In this document: positions 29,308-59,328 of the stretch, piece after piece
How positions within the stretch are numbered: position 1 is the stretch's first letter
Layout of the letters: the number at the start of each line of letters is the position of its first letter
Source: Planctomycetia bacterium
Lineage (GTDB): Bacteria; Planctomycetota; UBA8108; SXIK01
NCBI GenBank assembly: GCA_005772855.1
Contig: SXIK01000062.1
Location: 1-59,328, forward strand
Direction of reading: 5' to 3'
DNA: 59,328 nucleotides
Notes under the pieces: model-generated
The model's input: only the letters and a program-made list of their open reading frames with translations
What the model was told of the DNA's origin: nothing
Databases searched by the model: none
Position numbers and translations under genes: made by a program

Positions 29308-29502
29308 TATACCGCACGCTGCCAGTGATGAGACGTTTTGCAGCCCACGAAAAGTTGCAGCTGCTCGCGCCAGAGGCGCCCGGCGCCCATCAGGCGCCGA
29401 GGAGGGGGGGCCGCCTCCCCCTCCAGCAGAAACGCGCAGCAGACTTGAGATGGTCCTCCTCTGCCCATTCGGAATTTCTCACATGGGGGCGCGCGAGGTA
29501 TA
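29308..29502. mobile_element. MITE-like palindromic element, copy A
   Basis: 195 bases from TATACC to GGTATA, located between the M81 stop and the deacylase gene. It shares its left end (about 95 bases) and right end (about 85 bases) with copy B, differing by scattered substitutions and by lacking about 30 bases in the centre. The ends are imperfect inverted repeats beginning TATACC. A conserved hairpin CGGCGCC-CATCA-GGCGCCG lies at about 29381-29399. It encodes no transposase, so it would be non-autonomous. A short open frame through it is not taken as a gene. Confidence 0.75.
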
Positions 29503-33842: not shown

Positions 33843-34068
33843 TATACCGCACGCGGGCAGTGATGAGACCTTTTGCAGACTGCGAAAGGTTGCGGCTGCT
33901 CGCGCCAGAGGCGCCCGGCGCCCATCAGGCGCCGAGGAGGGGGAGGCCGCGTGTCGCGGCCGTCGTGGGGGAGGGTCCGCCTCCCCCACCAGCAGAAACG
34001 AGCAGCAGACTTGAGATGGTTCTCCTCTGCCCATTCGGAATGTCTCACGTGTGGGCGCGCGAGGTATA
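33843..34068. mobile_element. MITE-like palindromic element, copy B
   Basis: 226 bases bounded by TATACC and GGTATA. The outer 29 bases of the two ends match at 21 positions as inverted repeats (TATACC, CGCG, CA and TGAGAC blocks in the same spacing). The last TATATA and first TTATA allow a TA target duplication, as used by IS630/Tc1-like transposases. Internal hairpins are CCTTTTGCAG with CTGCGAAAGG, CGGCGCC-CATCA-GGCGCCG and a G-rich/C-rich pair around 33940-33990. No transposase is encoded. It marks the right end of the foreign-looking cassette. Confidence 0.8.
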
Positions 34069-59060: not shown

Positions 59061-59328
59061 TATACCGCACGCGGGCAGTGATGAGACCTTTTGCAGCCTG
59101 CGAAAGGTGGCGGCTGCTCGCGCCCGCGGCGCCCGGCGCCCATCTGGCGCCGAGGAGGGGGTTTGCGGCGAGCTGGCGGAGCCGCACACGGCTCGGAGGG
59201 AGCCGGCGCCAGCGAGAGCTGGCGGCTTCCGAGAGCCTGGCCCGGAGGCGCACGCGCAGCGTGCGACCGGAGGGGCCGCGTGTCGTTGTTGCCGCCGCCC
59301 TCGCTCCACCCTCGCTCCGCTCGGAGGC
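59061..59328. mobile_element. MITE-like palindromic element, copy C (cut by window end)
   Basis: Starts TATACCGCACGCGGGCAGTG and follows copy B closely for about 100 bases, including the CGGCGCC-CATCT-GGCGCCG hairpin with a one-base loop change. After GAGGAGGGGG the centre is replaced by at least 150 bases of new GC-rich sequence with its own nested inverted repeats (GAGCTGGCGGAGCC, GAGCCGGCGCC, GAGCTGGCGGC), and GGGGCCGCGTGTCG echoes the centre of copy B. The right end lies beyond the window. Confidence 0.72.

Follow-up and report, generated by a model that had tools for sequence, protein, structure and literature searches.

The window analysed here is the whole of contig C29, 59,328 nucleotides in length, and belongs to a planctomycete genome (the home genome) assembled to 5.03 Mb in 244 contigs; its organism falls in the family of the groundwater MAG behind G001. 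It harbors three copies of a repeat bounded by TATACC and GGTATA, all of which had been recognized in a sequence-only reading: copies A and B were re-found at exactly the coordinates first given, and copy C runs from 59061 to the contig end at 59328, which truncates it. The features are as follows.

29308..29502, + strand: copy A, 195 bp, with a shortened centre, without hairpin 2, 41.8 bits with covariance model R1
33843..34068, + strand: copy B, full-length 226-bp short form
33843..33872, + strand: left terminal inverted repeat of copy B, TATACCGCACGCGGGCAGTGATGAGACCTT; its outer TA is the presumed target duplication
33868..33890, + strand: left subterminal hairpin ACCTTTTGCAG/CTGCGAAAGGT, present in the home-genome family
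33899..33997, + strand: core conserved across phyla, the 99 positions of covariance model R1
33902..33914, + strand: core hairpin 0, GCGCC-aga-GGCGC
33916..33934, + strand: core hairpin 1, CGGCGCC-catca-GGCGCCG; the stem varies by compensatory change, the loop is CATCA in most genomes
33935..33946, + strand: purine linker AGGAGGGGGAGG, whose GGGGGAGG recurs as the 5' arm of hairpin 3
33945..33961, + strand: core hairpin 2, GGCCGCG-tgt-CGCGGCC
33965..33989, + strand: core hairpin 3, GTGGGGGAGG-gtccg-CCTCCCCCAC; the foot pair switches between C-G and U-A among genomes
34039..34068, + strand: right terminal inverted repeat of copy B, ending in GGTATA, 70% complementary to the left one
59061..59328, + strand: copy C, long form with an additional GC-rich module plus tandem repeats of CCCTCGCTCCA, 36.2 bits with R1

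Copy A is situated 2 nt 3' of the stop codon of a gene for an M81/MlrC-type peptidase, and copies C and B follow a stop codon after 8 and 226 nt, respectively. The earlier proposal that the elements insert just after stop codons does not hold in the home genome, where the best upstream ORF, by a simple ORF score, reads towards the left end in 8 instances and away from it in 14; it does hold for a form of the element in other genomes, described below as type III.

A BLAST comparison of copy B with its own genome returned 51 matches, nine of them near full length with at least 96% identity, and the best non-self match reached 98%. Queries with the left end (64 nt) and the right end (81 nt) gave 114 and 101 first-look candidates, respectively. 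Forty candidates were scored per side and all 40 were real at the left as well as at the right, and it is therefore fair to estimate about 100 copies in the home genome as an order of magnitude, not as a count. Conservation stops at TATACC and GGTATA, just as expected for the family originally proposed. Most full copies are 95-99% identical to the consensus, with copies A, L020 and L022 at 91-93%. Since contig starts and ends often fall inside copies, the family itself has probably fragmented the assembly.

Element sizes range from 193 to 390 bp, with forms of 193, 208, 226, 268, 336, 370 and 390 bp, and reflect a modular interior: the short form (226 bp) stands beside forms with a CCCTCGCTCCA-type tandem block (260-268 bp), with a long GC-rich hairpin block (336 bp) or with both (350-390 bp). 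The 11-bp CCCTCGCTCCA block behaves as a small VNTR whose repeat number differs among L038, L040, L041, L042 and L301. L020 (G000:C204:22010-22391) contains a tandem pair of left ends with one common right end, that is a duplicated partial copy. At the left edge of L044 the element is truncated and continues into part of its own interior in inverted orientation (GGCGGCAACAACGACACGCGGCC), which suggests inversion or template switching in the hairpins. Length differences from copy to copy and from genome to genome are not multiples of three and leave no conserved reading frame; the core was rejected as a coding sequence because these indels break the frame. Judged by its sequence traits (short and non-coding, terminal inverted repeats, many near-identical dispersed copies), the family is a non-coding, non-autonomous, TIR-bounded MITE, in agreement with the first interpretation.

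The ends of copy B had been described as imperfect inverted repeats with 21 of 29 positions matching. Imperfect inverted repeats they are, with a length of 30 nt and 21 of 30 positions complementary (70%). TACC and GGTA are nearly invariant at the ends of the MITE. The dinucleotide outside TACC is TA in 20 of 24 left ends and that outside GGTA in 34 of 39 right ends; further out, these 24 left and 39 right ends share no strong consensus. As the exceptions are mostly single changes inside the outer dinucleotide, the pattern is the one that a TA duplication would leave after decay. It is this position-specific decay that makes the outer TA the best candidate for a target duplication, a possibility already seen in the flanks of the first copies.

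A transposase with TATACC ends was not found in the home genome, and the expectation of an IS630-family transposase sharing the ends of the MITE failed. A DDE_3 (IS630-type) gene occurs only once (L232) and is bounded by AGTGCCGTCTTTCATAAGTTCC repeats unlike the MITE ends; it was rejected as a partner for this reason. This gene (L232:811-2130, G000:C126) has clean inverted ends of its own, AGTGCCGTCTTTCATAAGTTCCTGTGCAT, and the DDE domain, as far as matched, is without a reported internal stop. None of 20 further end-bearing regions shows a transposase between both ends; complete elements among them are shorter than about 410 bp and several are cut by contig ends. L291, which has a left end without a right end, was rejected as an autonomous copy: its core is interrupted after hairpin 0 by foreign sequence that, by eye, reads like an IS66-type transposase gene. 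The MITE was probably mobilized in trans by a cut-and-paste transposase that recognizes TACC...GGTA ends and duplicates TA, with recent amplification to roughly 100 copies. Such an enzyme may no longer be present or may lie outside the current assembly.

The family resembles bacterial MITEs of the IS630/Tc1 kind in being short, non-coding and TIR-bounded, with TA at both edges and many near-identical copies. It differs from them in that no matching transposase was found, the sole IS630-type gene having other ends, and in that its interior holds a hairpin core that is common to other MITEs across phyla. With REP/BIME and REPIN sequences mobilized by RAYT it shares the appearance as high-copy palindromic mosaics between genes; however, the unit there is a palindrome of 20-40 bp, whereas here a 99-nt four-hairpin core and a whole element of 190-390 bp are conserved, the home genome lacks Y1/RAYT, and carrier types I and II (see below) have terminal inverted repeats as well as duplications, presumed ones in type I. 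By the tests run, the home-genome family is a MITE, not demonstrably of IS630 type and not REP/BIME.

The conserved hairpins reported for the interior are present: the core spans about 99 nt and comprises four GC-rich hairpins connected through a purine linker, and copy B as RNA folds 5.6 SD below shuffles. When copy B is compared with relatives, strong matches are confined to query positions 60-153, with up to 94-98% identity, and the ends are unmatched. The covariance model R1 was built from 19 diverse cores. Among 79 aligned matches (alignment A2), both partners have changed in 15 of 29 pairs, as opposed to 5.3 in shuffles and 4-8 in slid controls; none of 500 shuffles reached 15, a comparison for which it has to be considered that A2 was fitted to R1, which favors the structure. 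The independent MAFFT alignment A1 exhibits the same tendency (5 pairs, reached by 4 of 500 shuffles). Departures from pairing in the stems are more often G.U than A.C (41 versus 17 events, p 0.002), an excess that may stem in part from the model-fitted alignment. The purine linker, which is conserved, and the 5' arm of hairpin 3 could compete for CCTCCCCC, with two mutually exclusive pairings as a predicted consequence. A classical intrinsic terminator was considered for the core and discarded, as no T-run lies 3' of hairpin 3 (CAGCAGAAACG in copy B, CCAACAAGA or similar elsewhere). The core shares stem conservation by compensatory changes with the structured RNAs of Rfam 15, but matches no family there at the gathering threshold, and a permissive search gave only sub-threshold chance matches. 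Plasmids, phages and viral contigs yielded no core match. A description of the core was not encountered in the literature searched, which is weak evidence as subscription papers lay outside the search.

The core occurs in other families of the Planctomycetota, among which 392 genomes were searched, and a pattern scan of named genomes detected it in several Planctomycetota MAGs, one Myxococcales MAG and one Polyangiaceae MAG. With R1, the Polyangiaceae MAG (G393) gave 67 matches (61 at a stricter limit) and three other Planctomycetota 35, 36 and 25. At 1e-5, 6 of 392 Planctomycetota genomes were positive and 5 of 379 in the phylum of the Polyangiaceae MAG (binned Myxococcota); the match-free genomes (386 of 392 and 374 of 379) serve as a negative control for the model. 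Most bearers are MAGs, such that bin assignment is insecure, but tens of copies on separate contigs and lineage-specific carriers argue against stray contigs.

Three types of carrier were distinguished. Type I is that of the home genome, with TATACC ends and the candidate TA duplication. Type II, found in G007, G689 and G563, has GGCNNNGGTCA-type ends and 8-bp duplications. In G007, which belongs to the same order as the organism studied here, the core resides in a 201-bp element with GGCGTGGTTCA ends, whose 8-bp duplications match at 7/8, 7/8 and 8/8 positions, with a further 8/8 case, agaaaaac, in L092/L062. The element of G689, from the phylum of the Polyangiaceae MAG, measures 205-208 bp and has GGCACCGGTCAA ends; its duplications match at 7.5/8 positions compared with 2.75/8 for mismatched pairs. 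G563 carries a core element with GGCYYCGGTCAYAAGACC ends and an 8/8 duplication. The ends of these three elements are alike (GGCNNNGGTCAMAA) and unlike TATACC. Furthermore, a 128-bp GGCGTGGTTCA element without the core is inserted into another palindrome in L052, with an 8/8 duplication, which indicates that such ends live independently of the core. That types I and II are transposed elements is well supported, following as it does from their anatomy. The core is common to mobile elements of two phyla whose ends are unrelated, and it gives the impression of a module that travels from one carrier to another.

Type III, in G332 (Baikal-deep-G170), G395 (SJ480) and part of G393, is without inverted ends, and no duplication was detectable. 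In G332, G393, G395 and G146 the homology is longer and adds a 5' stem and a 3' stem like CTCAGCGCGGGC...GCCCGCGCTGAG, and for most copies the length is sharply fixed (226-227 in G332, 215-216 in G393, 195-196 in G146). The elements begin with CTGA in G332, G393 and G395; those of G146 begin with TGTAC and lack the link to a stop codon. In 12 of 14 cases in G332, 7 of 9 in G393 and 4 of 4 in G395, an ORF of 100 codons or longer terminates with the TGA of the element's 5' edge, compared with 33%, 26% and 21%, respectively, of control TGAs of the same loci; in G393, a coding-like base pattern is apparent in just four or five of these seven ORFs. Several upstream proteins retain whole Pfam domains that reach close to the C-terminus: DUF4440, for instance, is matched at 107/107 positions up to residue 304 of 314, and HTH_8 at 42/42 positions up to residue 305 of 314. 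The upstream genes are therefore intact and the stop codon is native. Repeats that supply the stop codon have a precedent in the REP literature (PMC3733652). In G394 the upstream gene is sense to the core in 10 of 11 copies; neither the home genome nor G146 exhibits a sense bias with respect to genes.

Several neighbors of the core deserve mention. Directly downstream of core elements in G332 (L083, L169, L181, L184) comes another, longer hairpin repeat (GAGAGCGTGAGCAAGAATCCCGCG...), and G394 has a similar sequence behind a stop codon (L102); several hairpin modules thus form mosaics at gene ends. In four loci of G393 (L150, L151, L155, L163) the 3' stem of the element is swapped for another palindrome, GCAGCAATCAGGTTGATTGCTGC. 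In G394, a core copy directly adjoins an apparent tRNA gene on the opposite strand (L097, L213).

Taken together, we consider it probable that the elements in the window belong to a MITE family moved in trans, the interior of which carries a separate core found in unrelated carriers. The core may be an old structured single-strand element, either RNA or ssDNA, that is at home behind stop codons and was repeatedly picked up by local MITEs, which would then multiply it; the direction of capture is part of this proposal. Its likeliest effect would be exerted at the RNA level, as a compactly folded 3' terminus that withstands exonucleases or prevents read-through and makes the carrier tolerable between genes. 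A folded RNA 3' end fits best; the preponderance of G.U over A.C, subject to the alignment effect noted above, is what folding of the + strand would give, and the stop-codon form is placed in sense. More tentatively, and well short of a probable conclusion, the core could represent an undescribed selfish or functional module that folds as a single strand and is carried across phyla by transposons of differing mechanism, and whose ancestral form installs itself in sense precisely behind native TGA stop codons.

We regard it as rather unlikely that the core is simply the inert interior of a transposon, such that one ancient MITE lineage spread across phyla, its ends diverging or being replaced to suit new transposases, and the hairpins had no role beyond DNA folding. 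The patchy distribution, the many near-identical copies, the duplications in two kinds of carrier, clear in type II and presumed in type I, and the likeness of the type II ends among G007, G689 and G563 are all consistent with such a history. However, types I and II differ not only in their ends but also in duplication length (a presumed 2 versus 8 bp), which is outside normal drift in a single transposase family; compensatory changes accompany the conservation of the core across phyla, a conservation not shared by its neighbors; and the GGCGTGGTTCA MITE exists without the core.

A structured RNA had been named as a second possibility by the sequence-only reading and gains from the compensatory changes in the core and from its sense position behind native stops in relatives. 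In its full form, a functional 3'-UTR RNA (terminator, mRNA stabilizer or sRNA source) under selection, with the carriers merely incidental, it is nevertheless doubtful. The elements are placed in sense and exactly behind native stops in G332, G395 and part of G393, almost all G394 copies have a sense upstream gene, and the G.U excess is as expected if the + strand folds. On the other hand, occurrence in only about 1.5% of the sampled genomes per phylum is too patchy for a conserved regulator, the sense bias is absent from the home genome and G146, and the G.U excess is open to the alignment effect mentioned above.

Mobilization of the core elements by a single-strand (HUH, Y1) system of IS200/IS605 or RAYT type, with the CTGA of type III as cleavage or target motif, appears improbable. 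Type III elements do resemble palindrome-associated elements derived from IS200/IS605 in lacking inverted ends and duplications and in having a constant edge motif, a fixed length and subterminal hairpins, and Y1 proteins are encoded in G332, G146 and G393. However, PF01797 (Y1) is without a match in the home genome, G001, G007, G160, G394, G395 and G392, that is in most bearers, no core copy was found beside Y1 genes, and types I and II move differently, with inverted ends and with duplications, presumed ones in type I. A HUH/Y1 transposase was therefore rejected as the mover, being absent from the home genome and not adjoining core copies, and the terminal inverted repeats exclude the home-genome family from the IS200/IS605 type. 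Finally, chance likeness of GC-rich hairpins or an assembly or binning artefact is scarcely credible: such palindromes are common in these genomes, bearers are mostly MAGs and first-look candidates run to thousands per genome, but core matches reach E values of 1e-13 to 1e-17 over the whole 99-nt model, the comparable genomes of the negative control have none at 1e-5, 60-70 copies are spread over many separate contigs of one Polyangiaceae MAG, and each genome has its lineage-specific carriers.

A MITE is commonly regarded as what is left of one particular transposon, and its interior as dispensable. In the present elements, it is the interior that is conserved, and the ends are what changes over two phyla and two or more duplication lengths. 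If the interior is indeed retained while the ends are swapped, the core would be a selected passenger. Its carriers would then offer a clean system for learning what a short array of hairpins does for the element that bears it, and the stop-codon-exact form would be a natural case of gene-sparing insertion.
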